A stretch of DNA of 64,000 nt. Source: Methanosarcina barkeri MS. Its GTDB lineage: Archaea; Halobacteriota; Methanosarcinia; Methanosarcinales; Methanosarcinaceae. Each line of letters begins with the position of its first letter. The first letter of the stretch is position 1. Location: contig NZ_CP009528.1 in assembly GCF_000970025.1 (NCBI RefSeq), positions 1,847,168-1,911,167 of the forward strand, given 5' to 3'. Both the position numbers and the translations under genes were made by a program. Positions 47,533-58,921 of this stretch are shown in pieces. The notes beneath the pieces were generated by a model. That model saw only the letters and a program-made list of their open reading frames with translations, did no database searches and was not told where the DNA came from.

Positions 47533-48051
47533 ATGGCAAAAAGGTTAAAGGTTGCAAATCCGGCCCGCTGCATAGGCTGCTACTCCTGTATGATGGCCTG
47601 CGCAAGAACCTGGTATGATACTATATCTTTGAAAAACAGCCGAATTGATATACAGACCCGCGGAGGGATCGAAACTCCTTATTCTCAAATCGTCTGCCAT
47701 GCCTGCATAGACCCTCCTTGCATGAGGGCATGCCCGCTGGGCGCGCTTACCAAAAGGAAAGGGGGAGGAGTGAATCTCAATAAAGAGATCTGCGATGGCT
47801 GCGGAAACTGTATAGAAGCCTGCCTGGTGGGAGCTATCCATCTGGACGCGGAGAAAAAAGCCGTAATCTGCAAACACTGTGGTGTCTGCTCGAAGTTCTG
47901 TCCCCATGATGTGCTGGAAATGATTGAAGTCGAAGATAGCGGAGAAGTAAAGCTTACTGACACGGGCCCTGCTCCGGATACAAGTCCGGGTAGTCCTACT
48001 GCATCCCATAAAGACCTTTACGGAGGAGAAGAACCCGGGGAGGAAAAATGA
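47533..48051 (+). CDS. Polyferredoxin partner of AOR
   Basis: This 172-residue iron-sulfur protein has at least four [4Fe-4S]-type Cys motifs: CIGCYSCMMAC near 13-23, CHACIDPPCMRAC near 55-67, CDGCGNCIEAC near 87-97 and CKHCGVCSKFC near 113-123. The Pro-rich C-terminus is disordered. Layout and order resemble DmsB/HybA-like electron-transfer subunits. Its stop overlaps the AOR start by four bases (ATGA), which gives translational coupling. It would carry electrons from the tungsten enzyme to a redox partner. The ribosome site is GAGGGGG. Confidence 0.92.
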   Translation: MAKRLKVANPARCIGCYSCMMACARTWYDTISLKNSRIDIQTRGGIETPYSQIVCHACIDPPCMRACPLGALTKRKGGGVNLNKEICDGCGNCIEACLVGAIHLDAEKKAVICKHCGVCSKFCPHDVLEMIEVEDSGEVKLTDTGPAPDTSPGSPTASHKDLYGGEEPGEEK

Positions 48052-49811
48052 CAACCGAGCAATACGCTATTGAAGGGCTTAAGAATATACTCTATATTGA
48101 CCTGAATAGCCATAGCTATCATGTTAAGGAAAGGCGCGACCTCTATGAGAAATATCTGGGTGGTGTGGGAGTTGCCACAAACCTCATGCTCGAAGAGTCT
48201 AGAGAAGGCACAGGGCCTCTTGATCCGGAGATGCCAATAATCCTCAGCACAGGGCCACTCTCGGGAGTATATCCTACCTGCACCAAGACAGTTGCACTGT
48301 TCCGTTCCCCTCTCAACGGAGAATTGGGAGAATCCTATGCAGGTGGCCATCTTGCTATGTCCATGCGCTATTCAGGGTACGAAACAATTGTTATCAACGG
48401 GGCTTCCCGATACCCTGTGTATGTAGCAATCCACGACGACAAAGTTACCTTCAGGGACGCATCTTCCATATGGCATCTCTCTTCAGCAATTGATGTGGGA
48501 AAAATCCTGCGCGAAATAGAACCCGGTGCAGGCAGGCGCAGTATTATCAGAATTGGGCCTGCAGGAGAACGGGGGATCACATATGCCGATGTCAATGTTG
48601 ATACCTACCGCCATTTCGGACGCCTTGGGCTTGGAACGGTCTTCGGGGCAAAGAAACTTAAAGCTATGCTTATTTCCGGAAACAGGGAGTTGAAAAGCCC
48701 TGAGCACAATGCCTACCGAAAGACTGTCAGTATGCTCTATGACACAATTGTGAAAACCGGGCTTACTGAGAAGTACCATAACCTGGGCACAAGCGAAAAC
48801 ATTCTGGTTTTAAACGAACTTAAAGGCCTGCCTACTCGAAACCTGCAGGCAGCTTCTTTCGAAGGAGCTGAAACGATTTCAGGAGAGCTTTTTGCCGAAA
48901 AATATCTTCTCAGGCGGGTCTCCTGTGCAGGCTGCCCAATCGGGTGTATTCATGTAGCCATGCTAAAACGAGCCTTCTCAAAAGCCCATGAATATGAAGC
49001 ATTGAATATTTCTTATGATTTTGAATTGATCTATGCTCTGGGATCGAACCTTGGCGTAGCTGATCCTGAAGCTGTACTAGAGCTTATTGATGCCTGTGAA
49101 AAAGCAGGGGTTGATATAATCAGCATGGGCGTTGTACTTGCCTGGGCAACAGAGATGCAGCAGCGCGGGAAGATTTCCGCTAACGATTCTCTGGGGCTTA
49201 AACTTTCCTGGGGAGATAAAGCTGCATATCTGAGGGCAATAGACCTTGTAGTTCAGGCTCCAAACGAATTTTACTCAGACCTTGGAAAAGGGGTGGAATA
49301 TGCCTCAAAAAAATACGGAGGAGAGGACTTCGCAATTCGACTTGGAGGACTGGAAATTCCGGGATATCACACAGGACTTGGAAACGTGCTTGGACTCACT
49401 GTGGGCGCCAGGCATTCCCATCTTGACAGCGCAGGTTATTCTGCAGATCAGAAAGCATTTAATCAGCCAATTTCAGATGAGCAGATTGTTGATTATATAA
49501 TTGATGAAGAAGACCGGCGCAATGTCCTGAACTGCATGGTTTCCTGCCTTTTTGCCAGAAACGTCTACACATACGAAAACGTAATTCAGGCCCTTAAGGC
49601 TCTGGGAATCGAAAGAACCGACGAGGAATTAAAATCACTGGGAAAGGACATTTTCAGGAAAAAGTATGCATTAAAAAAGAACTTTGGCTTCAGGTTCGAA
49701 GACCTTAGAATCCCAAAAAGATTTTTTGAAACTCCCTCTACCACAGGGATACTCGAAGAAGAAAGAGTTAAAAGATCGATTGAACTTTATAGAAAGAAAA
49801 GGGGATTATGA
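48048..49811 (+). CDS. Tungsten aldehyde ferredoxin oxidoreductase
   Basis: This 587-residue enzyme oxidises an aldehyde to the acid, or in reverse reduces an acid, with tungstopterin. Its family length is about 600. The N-terminal beta barrel opens with ILYIDLNSHSYHVKERRDLYEKYLGGVGVATNLM. Cofactor-binding residues appear at RIGPAGERGITYADV and RHFGRLGLGTVFGAKKLKA. CAGCPIGC near 294-301 supplies three cluster cysteines, and the fourth lies in NVLNCMVSC near 485. The partner ferredoxin overlaps upstream. The physiological aldehyde is unknown. The enzyme likely works on amino-acid-derived or scavenged aldehydes, and it may depend on tungstate supply. Confidence 0.94.
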   Translation: MTTEQYAIEGLKNILYIDLNSHSYHVKERRDLYEKYLGGVGVATNLMLEESREGTGPLDPEMPIILSTGPLSGVYPTCTKTVALFRSPLNGELGESYAGGHLAMSMRYSGYETIVINGASRYPVYVAIHDDKVTFRDASSIWHLSSAIDVGKILREIEPGAGRRSIIRIGPAGERGITYADVNVDTYRHFGRLGLGTVFGAKKLKAMLISGNRELKSPEHNAYRKTVSMLYDTIVKTGLTEKYHNLGTSENILVLNELKGLPTRNLQAASFEGAETISGELFAEKYLLRRVSCAGCPIGCIHVAMLKRAFSKAHEYEALNISYDFELIYALGSNLGVADPEAVLELIDACEKAGVDIISMGVVLAWATEMQQRGKISANDSLGLKLSWGDKAAYLRAIDLVVQAPNEFYSDLGKGVEYASKKYGGEDFAIRLGGLEIPGYHTGLGNVLGLTVGARHSHLDSAGYSADQKAFNQPISDEQIVDYIIDEEDRRNVLNCMVSCLFARNVYTYENVIQALKALGIERTDEELKSLGKDIFRKKYALKKNFGFRFEDLRIPKRFFETPSTTGILEEERVKRSIELYRKKRGL

Positions 49812-51653: not shown

Positions 51654-53120
51654 ATGGAGGGAGATTTCTACAAAGAAAACATAGAGAAAATTGAAAAAAG
51701 ATTCTTTTCCATAGCTGAGATGACGGGGCAATTAATATTTGACGGTGATGTACAGACAGGAAAGATTGAGTGGTCAGGACCTATTGAAGAGTTCACAGGT
51801 TATACTCAAGAAGAGTTCAACAAAATTGATTTTGTCGCCTGTAAAGAATTGATACATCCAGAAGACAGAGAAAGAGTTTGGTGTTCTCTTGAGAATTCTT
51901 TAAATACAGGGGAAAAATTTGAGCAAAAATTCAGGTTTCGGAAAAAAGATGGAAACTATATTTACGTAGAGGATAGTTCGGTTTTTCTCAAAGGCAAGAA
52001 TGACTGTGTATATAGAGGAATAGGTTTGCTTAAAAATATCACAGAAAATAAGTATGCACAGGAAAAGCTCAAGGTAAGCGAAGAACACATTCTAAAATAC
52101 CTACAGAACTTTAGAGGTATTGGATTTGAGTTAGACAATAATTTCAATCTCATGCTTCTTCATGGAGCCGTAGAGGAAATTACAGGCCATAGAAATGAAG
52201 AATTTCTATCAGGAAAAATCAAATTGGTTCAGCTAGTATATCCTGAAGATCAAATTAATTTCCTTGAGAATCGAAAGAAACTGAACATTACACCTAACTC
52301 TTTAACTGAACAAGAATATCGAATTCTGAACAGAAATGGGAATATAGTTTGGGTCTTTGAGTCTATCCATGTTGTGCACGATATAAATAAGGCAAACCAG
52401 TTTTACCAGGGGTTCATCCAAGATGTGACTGAACAAAAAATTGCAAAGGAAGCTATTGACAAAGCCGAAAAACTTCGTAAAAAAGAAATTCACCATCGAA
52501 TCAAAAATAACCTGCAGGTAATATCCAGCCTCTTAGAATTAGAGTGCGAAAATTTGCTGTCCGGTGACCTAGAACGTGAAAAAGTTATTGAAGCATTTCG
52601 AGAAAGCAATAATCGAATCATATCCATGTCTATAATCCATGAAGAACTGTATAATTCCAAAGATATGGAAACAATCAATTTTGCTTCATACTTGAAAGAA
52701 TTAACAGATGATCTTTTCAAGTCGTATAAAGTTGGAAGTTCTGATATCCAATTGCTTTTAGATGTGGACGATATATTTTTTGAAATGGATAATGCAATCC
52801 CTTTAGGGATCATTATCAATGAACTCGTTTCTAATTCATTAAAGTATTCATTTCAAGAAGGAAGAAGCGGGAAAATTCAAATTAAACTTCACAGAGACGT
52901 TAATGATAAAAAGAAAAGTTTGGTCACTCCAAACCGAAATTTTATGTTAATTGTTGAAGACAATGGCATTGGTTTTCCGGATTCAATTGACTTCAGAAAC
53001 ACTAGTTCACTGGGCTTACAGTTGGTAAATACTCTTGTTGATCAAATCAATGGCGACATCGAACTTATAAAAGATTCAGGAACAAAATATAATATACGAT
53101 TTACAGATTCTTGTACATAG
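51654..53120 (+). CDS. PAS-PAS histidine kinase (HisKA_2/HWE type)
   Basis: This 488-residue soluble sensor kinase has two PAS domains (about 20-140, with WSGPIEEFTGYTQEEF and HPEDRERVW; about 148-265, with LHGAVEEITGHRNEEF and YPEDQINFL). Then comes a DHp helix KKEIHHRIKNNLQVISSLLELE with phospho-acceptor His 280, and an ATPase domain with NELVSNSLKYSF (N box), VEDNGIGFP (G1) and SSLGLQLVNTLV (G2). No membrane segment occurs, so it senses a cytoplasmic signal, perhaps redox or a lipid-like ligand. The start is ATG 51654 after GGAGAG. The terpene-synthase-like gene follows after 55 bp, and no response regulator is adjacent. Confidence 0.93.
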   Translation: MEGDFYKENIEKIEKRFFSIAEMTGQLIFDGDVQTGKIEWSGPIEEFTGYTQEEFNKIDFVACKELIHPEDRERVWCSLENSLNTGEKFEQKFRFRKKDGNYIYVEDSSVFLKGKNDCVYRGIGLLKNITENKYAQEKLKVSEEHILKYLQNFRGIGFELDNNFNLMLLHGAVEEITGHRNEEFLSGKIKLVQLVYPEDQINFLENRKKLNITPNSLTEQEYRILNRNGNIVWVFESIHVVHDINKANQFYQGFIQDVTEQKIAKEAIDKAEKLRKKEIHHRIKNNLQVISSLLELECENLLSGDLEREKVIEAFRESNNRIISMSIIHEELYNSKDMETINFASYLKELTDDLFKSYKVGSSDIQLLLDVDDIFFEMDNAIPLGIIINELVSNSLKYSFQEGRSGKIQIKLHRDVNDKKKSLVTPNRNFMLIVEDNGIGFPDSIDFRNTSSLGLQLVNTLVDQINGDIELIKDSGTKYNIRFTDSCT

Positions 53121-53175
53121 ATACGAGTGATATTTCAATTGAATCAATTTATCAAAGTTGGTGGTAATTGTGATA

Positions 53176-54144
53176 ATGTCCAAGTATGATACATTGTGGG
53201 AAAATTACTACTCGAGCTACAAGAAAGTTGCAAGCCCTCACAGAAAGCCAAATCTTTTTAAATGGCTTTATGATAGTTACATATTTCTACATCTTTCTTG
53301 CGTTGATTCTTCTAGTGTCTACAAACTTGCCGACTTCAAAGCATGTCTAGCTCTAGTGGATACAGCCGTTGATGATTCTTGTGATAATGCATCTTTTATA
53401 GAAGAGAATGGGGGAGACAAATTCAGTTATGAAATGCTGAGTATTCTTTATAGTGCGGATAAAATTGTATCTGGAACTTACAAGCCATCACAACTTAACG
53501 AAGAAAATCTTTATACAAAAATTACATTTGATATTTTTTCTGATTTTCTTATGAATCATCTAATATCCCTTCCAAGATACTATGATTTTAAAAGTGAGTT
53601 ATTCCTATCAATAAAAAACGTAGCCGGGTCAATGGAGTTTTCTTATCTTTTGAACAAAAATAAGATTGCATATCCTTATTCTCTTGTTGTTCAAAATAAG
53701 GGTCCTTCCACAATGGTTGCGGTTCTCTCCATACTTGATCTGATGTCCTCTGAAAGTTTTGATGCTTCAGAGCTTGGAAAAGCAATAGCTCTATTTAATA
53801 TGGCCGACGTTGTAGCAATGCTAAATAATGCAGTCAATACATGGAAAAAAGAAATAGTTGAAAGAGATTACAGTAGTCCAGTAATTTCACTAGCTCTTGA
53901 GAAAAAGCTTATTAAATTCAGTGATTTCGAAAATCTTAGCACAGAAAAAATAGAAGAAAAGCTGTTACCAGTATCTTTAATGGTAAATGAAGATCTTAAC
54001 AGAAAGTTATTGTTAATGGAGGAGTTTGCTGAGACTTATGAAATAAAAAGCTTTGATACTTCTAGATATATCAACAATTATAGAATTTACGCATTTGAAA
54101 GTCAAAAAAAGAATAAAGAGGTCTGCCAAAAGCATGCAGCTTGA
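53176..54144 (+). CDS. Putative class I terpene synthase
   Basis: This is a 322-residue, mostly helical protein. It shows DDSCD (residues 66-70, DDxxD) at the end of a helix, a second metal motif N218-x3-T222-x3-E226 about 150 residues later, and an RY pair at 297-298 near the C-terminus. These are the three landmarks of class I terpene cyclases, in order and at proper spacing, and the size matches bacterial single-domain enzymes. The Asp usually second in the NSE motif is Ala 219. The predicted reaction is Mg-dependent ionisation and cyclisation of a prenyl diphosphate; the product is unknown. The start is ATG 53176. It is encoded 55 bp after the PAS kinase, probably on one transcript. Confidence 0.72.
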   Translation: MSKYDTLWENYYSSYKKVASPHRKPNLFKWLYDSYIFLHLSCVDSSSVYKLADFKACLALVDTAVDDSCDNASFIEENGGDKFSYEMLSILYSADKIVSGTYKPSQLNEENLYTKITFDIFSDFLMNHLISLPRYYDFKSELFLSIKNVAGSMEFSYLLNKNKIAYPYSLVVQNKGPSTMVAVLSILDLMSSESFDASELGKAIALFNMADVVAMLNNAVNTWKKEIVERDYSSPVISLALEKKLIKFSDFENLSTEKIEEKLLPVSLMVNEDLNRKLLLMEEFAETYEIKSFDTSRYINNYRIYAFESQKKNKEVCQKHAA

Positions 54145-54158
54145 TTATTTGAAATAGC

Positions 54159-54204
<46 letters not shown>

Positions 54205-54776: not shown

Positions 54777-54940
54777 TTGTATGTGAATTTCCCTACTGAA
54801 AATGGTTTGTTTAAGGCAGTAAACGGCGTAGATCTTTCTATTGCTGAAAACGAAACATGCTTACGGTCCTTGCGTTCAACTACCTTGGGGACGAATTAAA
54901 GGACCTGCTTGACCCAAGAGATATGAAAGACATCGACTGA
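54777..54940 (+). pseudogene. Chimeric relic of a peptide/nickel ABC transporter
   Basis: The first part reads LYVNFPTENGLFKAVNGVDL and SIAENET, which is the N-terminus of an OppD/DppD-type ATPase up to just before its Walker A. It then jumps to LTVLAFNYLGDELKDLLDPR plus a short tail and TGA, which is the C-terminus of a DppC-type permease. A deletion has joined the start of one gene to the end of another in a different frame. Everything between is missing. Confidence 0.78.
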
Positions 54941-55012
54941 AGCTTAACCTTCGAAATAAGAGGGACATCGACTGAAGCTTAACCTTCGAAAAAAGAAGGA
55001 CATCGACTGAAA
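54929..55012. repeat. 35-bp direct repeat, 2.4 copies
   Basis: GACATCGACTGAAGCTTAAC... repeats with a period of 35 from the end of the ABC permease relic (54929, 54964, 54999). It duplicates the relic's last codons and stop, and ends 30 bp before the MFS gene. Confidence 0.85.
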
Positions 55013-56624: not shown

Positions 56625-56720
56625 TTTGTTATAATTTCAACAGCTTCTTTTGTTATGATTTTAACAGCCTCTTTTGTTATGATTTCAACAGCCTCTTTTG
56701 TTATGATTTCAACAGTTTCA
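56625..56720. repeat. 24-bp tandem repeat, 4 copies
   Basis: TTTGTTATGATTTCAACAGC + CTCT occurs four times with small changes. In the rest of the gap 56345-57457 I see no gene on either strand. Confidence 0.9.
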
Positions 56721-57457: not shown

Positions 57458-58921
57458 ATGAGACTAACAAAATCTATTTGCCCAGAATGCAAAAGAGTAA
57501 TTGAAGCTTCGATCTTCGAGGAAAATGGGAAAATAATAATGGGAAAAAAATGTCCCGATCACGGGAGTTTCAGGGATGTCTACTGGTCAGATGCTGAACT
57601 CTACTGGAAGTTCGAAAAGTATTCATATACAGGAACAGGGGTTTCAAACTTCAAGAGTTCCGGTTCTTTAAACTGCCCTTTTGGTTGCGGGATCTGCCAG
57701 CATCATGAATCGGGAACTTTACTTGCAAACATAGATGTTACTAATCGATGTAACCTTAAATGCCCTGTCTGTTTTGCAAATGCAAAAGTAAAGGGCTTCG
57801 TTTTCGAACCAAGCTTCGAAGAAATCCGAAAGATGATGGAAACACTAAGAAATGAGAAACCTGTGCCCTGCTCTGCCATTCAGTTTTCAGGTGGAGAGCC
57901 AACAGTAAGGGATGACCTTCCGGAGATTATTGAACTGGCCCAGGAGCTGGGGTTTGCACATATCCAGCTTGCAAGCAACGGAGTTCGCCTTGCTAATAGT
58001 CCTGAATACTGCAAAAGGCTAAAAGATGCAACCTTGCGTACTGTTTATCTAGCTTTTGACGGAATCACTCCAGAGCCTTATTTTGAAACTCGGGGCTTTA
58101 ACGCTCTGTCTTTGAAGAAAAAAGCTATTGAAAATTGCAGACGTTGCGGGCCTGAAAGTATTGTGCTTGTTCCAACTCTTGCAAAAGGTGTAAATGACTC
58201 TCAGATAGGGGGGATCATCCGTTATGCAGCCGAAAATCTTGACATTATAAAAGGAGTGAACTTCCAGCCAATTGCGTTTACAGGAAGAATAGATCAGTCT
58301 CAAAGAGAACAGAAGAGAATCACCATACCTGACGTCATAAAGCTTGCGGAAGAACAGACTAATGGAGAGATTCCCTGTAATGCCTGGTACCCGGTATCTT
58401 TTGTGGTTCCTCTAAGCCGCTTCCTCTCAGCTATGAGAAAAGTTCCTATTCCGGAGTTGACAGTTCATCCACACTGCGGTGCTGGAACTTACGTTTTCTA
58501 TGAAGAAGGGCACTTTATCCCAATTACAAATTTTCTTGATGTGGAAGGTTTTGTTGAATTTCTGGCTGAAACAACCTCAGAAATGAATGGAAGAGTTAGC
58601 AGAATTCTAACCCTTCCGAAGATCATCAAGCAAGTGCCACGGTACATTGACGAGAAGAAGGGACCAAAGTCGATAAATGTAGTCCAGATGATCCTTGGTG
58701 TCCTTAAAAAAGGTGATATGGAAAATACATCACGTTTTCACAGAAATACACTATTCCTCGGAACAATGCATTTTCAGGATTTATACAACATAGATCTTGA
58801 AAGAATCAAAAAATGCGGAGTACATTATGCCATACCAGACGGTAGAATAATTCCTTTCTGCGCATATAACAACTTTCATAGAGACTCCGTCGAATCAAAG
58901 TTCTCGGCGCCTTATATATAG
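57458..58921 (+). CDS. tes: Tes-like radical SAM enzyme (tetraether lipid synthase family)
   Basis: This 487-residue radical SAM protein has an N-terminal Cys cluster (C8, C11, C32), a second set CPFGCGIC at 73-80, and the SAM cluster C98-x3-C102-x2-C105 in NRCNLKCPVCFANA, then FSGGEPTVRDDLPE near 145. More Cys pairs occur near the C-terminus (VHPHCGAG, FCAYNNFHRDS). This arrangement matches the family that joins archaeol biphytanyl chains to form GDGT tetraether lipids. Related proteins of uncertain role share the fold, so the exact reaction is inferred. GGGTGAAAGC precedes ATG. A stand-alone gene; control is not visible. Confidence 0.87.
   Translation: MRLTKSICPECKRVIEASIFEENGKIIMGKKCPDHGSFRDVYWSDAELYWKFEKYSYTGTGVSNFKSSGSLNCPFGCGICQHHESGTLLANIDVTNRCNLKCPVCFANAKVKGFVFEPSFEEIRKMMETLRNEKPVPCSAIQFSGGEPTVRDDLPEIIELAQELGFAHIQLASNGVRLANSPEYCKRLKDATLRTVYLAFDGITPEPYFETRGFNALSLKKKAIENCRRCGPESIVLVPTLAKGVNDSQIGGIIRYAAENLDIIKGVNFQPIAFTGRIDQSQREQKRITIPDVIKLAEEQTNGEIPCNAWYPVSFVVPLSRFLSAMRKVPIPELTVHPHCGAGTYVFYEEGHFIPITNFLDVEGFVEFLAETTSEMNGRVSRILTLPKIIKQVPRYIDEKKGPKSINVVQMILGVLKKGDMENTSRFHRNTLFLGTMHFQDLYNIDLERIKKCGVHYAIPDGRIIPFCAYNNFHRDSVESKFSAPYI

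Follow-up and report, generated by a model that had tools for sequence, protein, structure and literature searches.

The window (the whole 64,000-nucleotide stretch of Methanosarcina barkeri MS DNA that was analyzed) carries a gene for a soluble sensor histidine kinase followed, on the same strand, by a gene whose product has the predicted fold and the metal-binding motifs of class I terpene synthases. The reading that we favor, and consider likely, is that the product of the second gene is a class I terpene synthase able to carry out catalysis and controlled by a dedicated signal, and that the gene makes up half of a conserved two-gene module. The features of the pair are listed below.

51654–53120 (+), soluble sensor histidine kinase, PAS-PAS-HisKA_2-HATPase_c (PAS_3 6e-37; HisKA_2 PF07568 4.9e-29; HATPase_c PF02518 1.2e-10)
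51765–52025 (+), first PAS domain of the kinase, residues 38–124 (best stretch for PAS_3)
52077–52454 (+), second PAS/S-box domain of the kinase, residues 142–267 (best stretch for TIGR00229)
52485–52727 (+), HisKA_2 dimerisation and phospho-acceptor domain, residues 278–358, with H-box KEIHHRIKNN (PF07568)
52794–53102 (+), HATPase_c domain of the kinase, residues 381–483 (PF02518)
53160–53165 (+), Shine-Dalgarno-like GGTGGT ahead of GTG 53170, read from the sequence; GGTGAT in most relatives
53170–54144 (+), class I terpene-synthase-like protein (fold match; profile link to PF19086-positive relatives; pairwise dN/dS 0.14–0.22)
53371–53385 (+), DDSCD, residues 66–70, aspartate-rich Mg-binding motif at the end of helix 45–70 (DDxx[DE] in 103 of 103 covering members)
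53698–53700 (+), K175, candidate pyrophosphate sensor by a helix break at ~180 (column counts and DSSP; putative function)
53827–53853 (+), N218-x3-T222-x3-E226 (NSE triad), with K/R at 225, on helix 197–228 (column counts, 105 members)
54064–54069 (+), RY, residues 297–298 ([KR][YF] in the Methanosarcina clade; not conserved family-wide)

Fold, motifs and class of the synthase-like protein

The reading frame at 53176–54144 (+) is unbroken and encodes 322 amino acids. The gene probably starts two codons upstream of ATG 53176, at GTG 53170; we prefer this start because of the GGTGGT site ahead of it and because close relatives have a start codon at the same place. In one close relative the codon matching GTG 53170 is the sole usable start.

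The first-pass annotation, made from the sequence alone, had taken the product for a class I terpene-synthase-like protein and had proposed a fold prediction as a check. The AlphaFold model (pLDDT 91, pTM 0.90) has the all-helical class I fold, and the best 50 PDB matches to it are class I terpene synthases exclusively, with Z of 21–24 over 255–282 residues. Among them are Sat1646 (Z 23.7, rmsd 2.6, 257 aligned residues), tolypothrichol synthase (Z 23.7, rmsd 3.2, 277 aligned) and bornyl diphosphate synthase (Z 23.3, rmsd 3.7, 280 aligned). A model of a haloarchaeal relative (L024), built without Methanosarcina sequences, has pLDDT of 92.9 and likewise matches terpene synthases (best Z 22.3). 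A search of a viral structure library gave no significant match.

Direct sequence searches with the protein produced no match in Pfam (at E up to 1), NCBIfam or PDB sequences. Profile searches with PF19086 and PF03936, also proposed in the first-pass annotation, did not detect the protein directly, but PF19086 was reached through intermediates of the family. Two relatives score above the curated cut-off of PF19086 (Terpene_syn_C_2, 23.7 bits): L024 with 33.7 bits (3.9e-8) and L029 with 23.8 bits. In profile–profile comparison the Methanosarcina clade matched the rest of the family with 99.8% probability (E 4e-28); across the 273 columns the DD and NSE motifs of the two sets line up. The class membership thus rests on family intermediates and the fold, as the direct searches had no match; the protein is almost certainly a terpene-making enzyme. 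PF19086 detected nothing in 31 Methanosarcina genomes, a result uninformative by itself since 14 control genomes were empty as well. In the family tree the stem of the Methanosarcina subclade is 2.4 changes per site long (support 100/100); such a stem would account for Pfam missing the clade, and it indicates that function may have shifted in this subclade. A standard Pfam scan, then, overlooks an entire clade of such enzymes. Weak similarity of relatives to the C-terminal domain of mevalonate-3-kinase (E 0.007–0.03) was below the cut-off and was judged to be a chance match.

Conservation was counted over 105 family members. Every member that covers them has D66 and D67, followed by D or E at position 70. 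N218 and E226 occur in 105 of 105 members; at 222 there are 104 T and a single S, and residue 225 is K or R in all 105. Class I synthases use the DDxx[DE] and NSE residues to bind their three Mg ions. By DSSP, the model has DDSCD as the end of helix 45–70 and N218–E226 (sequence context NNAVNTWKKE) near the end of helix 197–228, a placement as in class I cyclases. Shuffling of the same residues yielded DDxxD together with NxxxTxxxE at suitable spacing in 0.03% of cases. The gene is under purifying selection, as judged from pairwise dN/dS of 0.14–0.22 in the Methanosarcina clade.

The first-pass annotation had named three landmarks of class I cyclases, DDSCD at residues 66–70, N218/T222/E226 and RY at 297–298, and all were found in the 322-residue translation. 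The acidic and NSE motifs are kept across almost all of the 105 relatives; RY is no family landmark, since R297 occurs in only 7 of the 105 members, with a [KR][YF] pair in the Methanosarcina clade. In bacterial class I cyclases the pyrophosphate-sensor arginine is located ~46 residues before the NSE triad and the RY pair ~80 residues after it. Only in the Methanosarcina clade is position 175 always K or R; elsewhere in the family other residues take its place. That neither the sensor arginine nor the RY pair of bacterial cyclases is conserved family-wide speaks against the reading that we favor.

If the protein is catalytically active, as we infer, its substrate would be an allylic prenyl diphosphate (C15, C20 or C25) supplied by the cell, which it would ionise with three Mg ions held by DDSCD and N218/T222/E226, releasing a cyclic or linear terpene. 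One could suppose instead that the protein is a class I isoprenoid enzyme of a different kind, either one that synthesizes prenyl diphosphates or a prenyltransferase with a second substrate. The superfamily fold is common to both kinds of enzyme, and archaea need prenyl diphosphate synthases. Still, the protein has the NSE triad in place of a second aspartate-rich motif, it has no match to polyprenyl_synt (PF00348) at E up to 1, and terpene synthases lead the structural matches, with no prenyl diphosphate synthase among the best 50 PDB matches listed. We regard this alternative as most improbable.

The kinase and the two-gene module in Methanosarcina

The synthase was found in 11 of 31 Methanosarcina genomes, in three of them (G004, G013 and G026) as broken or partial copies only. 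An orthologue of the kinase, intact or as a remnant, accompanies it in 11 of 11 synthase-bearing genomes and is present in 0 of the 20 others. In the genus-wide search these orthologues have identity of 69–100%, while the next-best kinases reach at most 54%. At the M. barkeri locus the kinase gene is intact, with pairwise dN/dS of 0.07–0.19. Every intact locus has kinase and synthase in the same order and on the same strand, including a locus from another genus (G184, UBA9310); G001 is one of the genomes with an intact pair. The window, G001/G006, G184/UBA9310, UBA289 (L038) and ERenArc_MAG2 (L039) have different flanking genes, so that the module occupies several unrelated sites. The first-pass annotation had noted the adjacency of the two genes in a single sequence; the association turned out to be much stronger than was claimed there, and the PAS/HisKA_2 kinase is a true partner of the synthase. 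The conserved unit in Methanosarcina is one enzyme and one sensor, with no tailoring genes. A methyltransferase gene located 3′ of the synthase in two genomes was considered as a terpene methyltransferase and rejected: it belongs to the core genes and has counterparts of 86–97% identity elsewhere.

Decay of the module was observed repeatedly, in L120 (G004), L040 (G013), L122 (G026) and L039 (G002), and in three modes: synthase deleted with kinase kept, both genes broken, and kinase broken with synthase intact. In G004 the kinase is retained and the synthase is seen as remnants only. Broken kinase remnants lie beside the synthase in L039 and L122, both of which are outside the list of orthologues.

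The first-pass annotation had put the start of the synthase 55 bp after the kinase. This is true for ATG 53176; to the preferred GTG the gap is 49 bp, and in relatives it extends up to ~600 bp, which argues against a single tight operon everywhere. In the long gaps of L119 (G003), L043, L118 and L121 there is a common conserved block ahead of the Shine-Dalgarno site, absent from the window; it may be a promoter or leader element. Comparing the window with L131 and L038, we saw that the synthases are closer (dS 0.35–0.44) than the adjacent kinases (dS 0.76–0.80), a mismatch that suggests recombination inside the module.

The pairing of the synthase with a dedicated PAS/HisKA_2 kinase leads us to propose that terpene synthesis answers to an intracellular signal of its own. 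The PAS domains would read an intracellular or redox cue, and the kinase would set expression of the synthase by phosphotransfer to a putative regulator; action of the kinase on the synthase or on its expression is what we infer from their association.

Several other features were observed around the locus. A tetraether lipid synthase gene, Tes (NF045702, 727 bits), is located at 57458–58921 (+), 3.3 kb downstream of the synthase with an MFS transporter gene between them; with it the region has two isoprenoid-related genes. A (TTA)15 microsatellite at 54159–54203 starts ~15 bp past the synthase stop codon, and tandem arrays flank the MFS gene at 54925–55011 (35 bp, 2.5 copies) and 56625–56715 (24 bp, 3.8 copies). 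At ~54780–54870 we read from the sequence an apparent remnant of the N-terminus of an oligopeptide-type ABC transporter ATPase (ENGLFKAVNGVDLSIAENETC). Genes for a ferredoxin-like Fe-S protein and then an aldehyde ferredoxin oxidoreductase family protein are present at 47533–49811 (+). No known RNA families were found at the locus.

Distribution of the family and its sensor neighbors

Phylum-wide, family members were detected in 35 of 393 genomes by a single-sequence search and in 38 of 393 genomes (19 of 136 genera) by a profile search. A wider scan of ~85,000 species genomes added, among archaea, haloarchaea (Natrinema, Haloarcula, Halorubrum, Haloferax and others), Thermoplasmatota, Methanofollis and Methanohalobium and, among bacteria, Patescibacteria/CPR (3 of 287 sampled genomes with a family member) and a few other bacterial MAGs; taxonomic assignments of MAGs may be affected by contamination. 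The first-pass annotation had presented the protein as an archaeal terpene cyclase in a methanogen. The family is not confined to methanogens: it is widespread in haloarchaea and present in CPR bacteria.

Neighbors of the synthase were analyzed at 45 loci, non-redundant at 70% identity and with the Methanosarcina clade excluded; a gene was counted as a sensor gene if it had a HATPase, BAT-HTH_10 or KaiC-like domain, and as distal if it was >3.5 kb away. An adjacent sensor was present at 23 of the 45 loci. Sensor genes made up 24 of 83 adjacent genes versus 2 of 170 distal genes (p 3e-11). The enrichment held at 50% non-redundancy (p 2e-5) and was not significant at 40%, where 7 loci were left; since the genomes are related, locus counts overstate the number of independent events. 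Pfam scans of 80 neighbors gave BAT (11), HATPase_c (11) and HisKA_7TM (5), none of which was among the families seen at least twice in 71 controls.

The sensors are of different kinds. PAS-GAF-BAT-HTH_10 neighbors were seen in Halorubrum, Halogeometricum, Halomarina and Haloarcula relatives, a KaiC-like neighbor in Halorussus, a PAS-HisKA protein in Methanohalobium and PAS-HATPase kinases in others. CPR loci have 7TM-type kinases directly downstream of the synthase; in one of them (L089) the kinase follows almost directly after the synthase. In a gammaproteobacterial MAG (L104) a PilZ domain (E 7e-12) is fused to the N-terminus of the synthase, in a CDS starting at ~2485 (+); the fusion may represent a c-di-GMP sensor joined to a terpene synthase. 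The surroundings are sensor-free at several loci, Methanomicrobia among them, and about half of the non-redundant loci are without an adjacent sensor.

It might be argued that this is an ordinary terpene synthase with ordinary local regulation, and that adjacency to sensors reflects kinase-rich haloarchaea and Methanosarcina and hitchhiking of the module. M. acetivorans has 53 histidine kinases (PMC11784639), the sensor-free loci would fit, and so would the methyltransferase gene beside the synthase in two genomes, an incidental core gene. Such an account has to face the excess of sensor domains among adjacent over distal genes, the perfect co-occurrence of an orthologous kinase with the synthase and the existence of the PilZ fusion; we consider it unlikely. 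In the reading with dedicated signal control, the whole family is linked to sensing, and its lineages have joined one synthase to unlike partners: Bat-type PAS-GAF-HTH regulators, 7TM and PAS kinases, KaiC-like ATPases and, by fusion, a PilZ domain.

The same diversity could point to another arrangement in archaea and CPR, in which the terpene itself is the signal and the adjacent lineage-specific sensor its receptor, as in the LuxI/LuxR and ComQ/ComP pairs. A conserved unit of a lone enzyme and a lone sensor with tailoring genes absent, the pairing of the same enzyme with several unrelated sensor types and the membrane 7TM kinases of CPR bacteria agree with it, and there is a precedent, the Bacillus quorum-sensing locus ComQXPA, where the gene of an isoprenoid enzyme is located beside that of its pheromone histidine kinase (PMC4008528). 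Yet Bat-type regulators are DNA-binding proteins, usually taken to control nearby genes; diversity of sensors is equally compatible with regulation, and about half of the loci have no sensor next to the synthase. To our mind, synthesis and reception of a terpene signal at one locus is a rather doubtful interpretation.

At two CPR-type loci (L107 and L111) a polyprenyl synthetase gene lies a short way upstream of the synthase, which fits a biosynthetic role for the family. This pairing argues against a dead or slow terpene-synthase fold that binds prenyl diphosphate and works as a subunit of the kinase, in sensing or as an adaptor, as does the invariance of the metal-binding motifs in >100 divergent members, which a pure binder would not need. 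Constant sensor pairing in Methanosarcina, the long stem branch and a sensor arginine that is not family-conserved are what could be said for such a subunit; overall we find it very unlikely and retain a catalytic synthase under sensor control as the preferred reading.

Comparison with known systems

Our literature search for archaeal terpene synthases found no characterized class I enzyme; subscription literature was mostly outside its reach, which makes this weak evidence of absence. One study tallied the sequences with a PF03936 domain in archaeal proteomes (PMC10600500). Haloarchaeal terpene-type clusters have been predicted by genome mining, with neither a class I cyclase nor a sensor link named in the accessible parts of these reports (PMC8600319, PMC10105419, PMC12144867), one of which, in such a part, gives bacterioruberin as the sole archaeal terpene tied to a cluster as of 2023 (PMC10105419). 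The paper on M. acetivorans kinases does not mention terpenes (PMC11784639). The enzyme class is an established one; our literature search turned up neither this archaeal/CPR family nor any account of its regular coupling to sensors.

Archaea depend on isoprenoids, and the family places a likely cyclase in genetically tractable organisms, with relatives in Haloarcula and Haloferax. Unrelated sensors in archaea and CPR, together with the PilZ fusion, suggest signal-controlled terpene output where no such physiology is known; archaeal chemical signaling via terpenes thereby becomes directly testable.

The 2-methylisoborneol operon reportedly combines genes for cyclic-nucleotide-binding proteins with methyltransferase and cyclase genes, the methyltransferase being said to act on GPP. 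There too a terpene synthase is located beside a putative nucleotide-sensing protein, comparable to the sensor link described here. The partner in our family is, in contrast, a histidine kinase, a Bat regulator or a PilZ domain, and in Methanosarcina there is no conserved methyltransferase.

The likeness to ComQXPA is in gene arrangement. ComQ prenylates the ComX pre-peptide, whereas in the window the kinase comes first and the 49-bp gap leaves no room for a pre-peptide gene; the synthase, unlike ComQ in this comparison, has no match to the polyprenyl_synt family.

Bacterial class I terpene synthases (PF19086; Sat1646 7e4n, tolypothrichol synthase 9kgb, epi-isozizaene synthase) are likewise single-domain all-helical proteins of ~320 amino acids, with DDxx[DE] and N-x3-[ST]-x3-E in the same order. 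Identity to them is ~10%, and the Methanosarcina members score nothing on PF19086. The NSE motif has T-W and no Asp in second position, unlike that of the bacterial enzymes, and the family differs from them further in having no conserved sensor arginine or RY pair and in its linkage to sensor genes.
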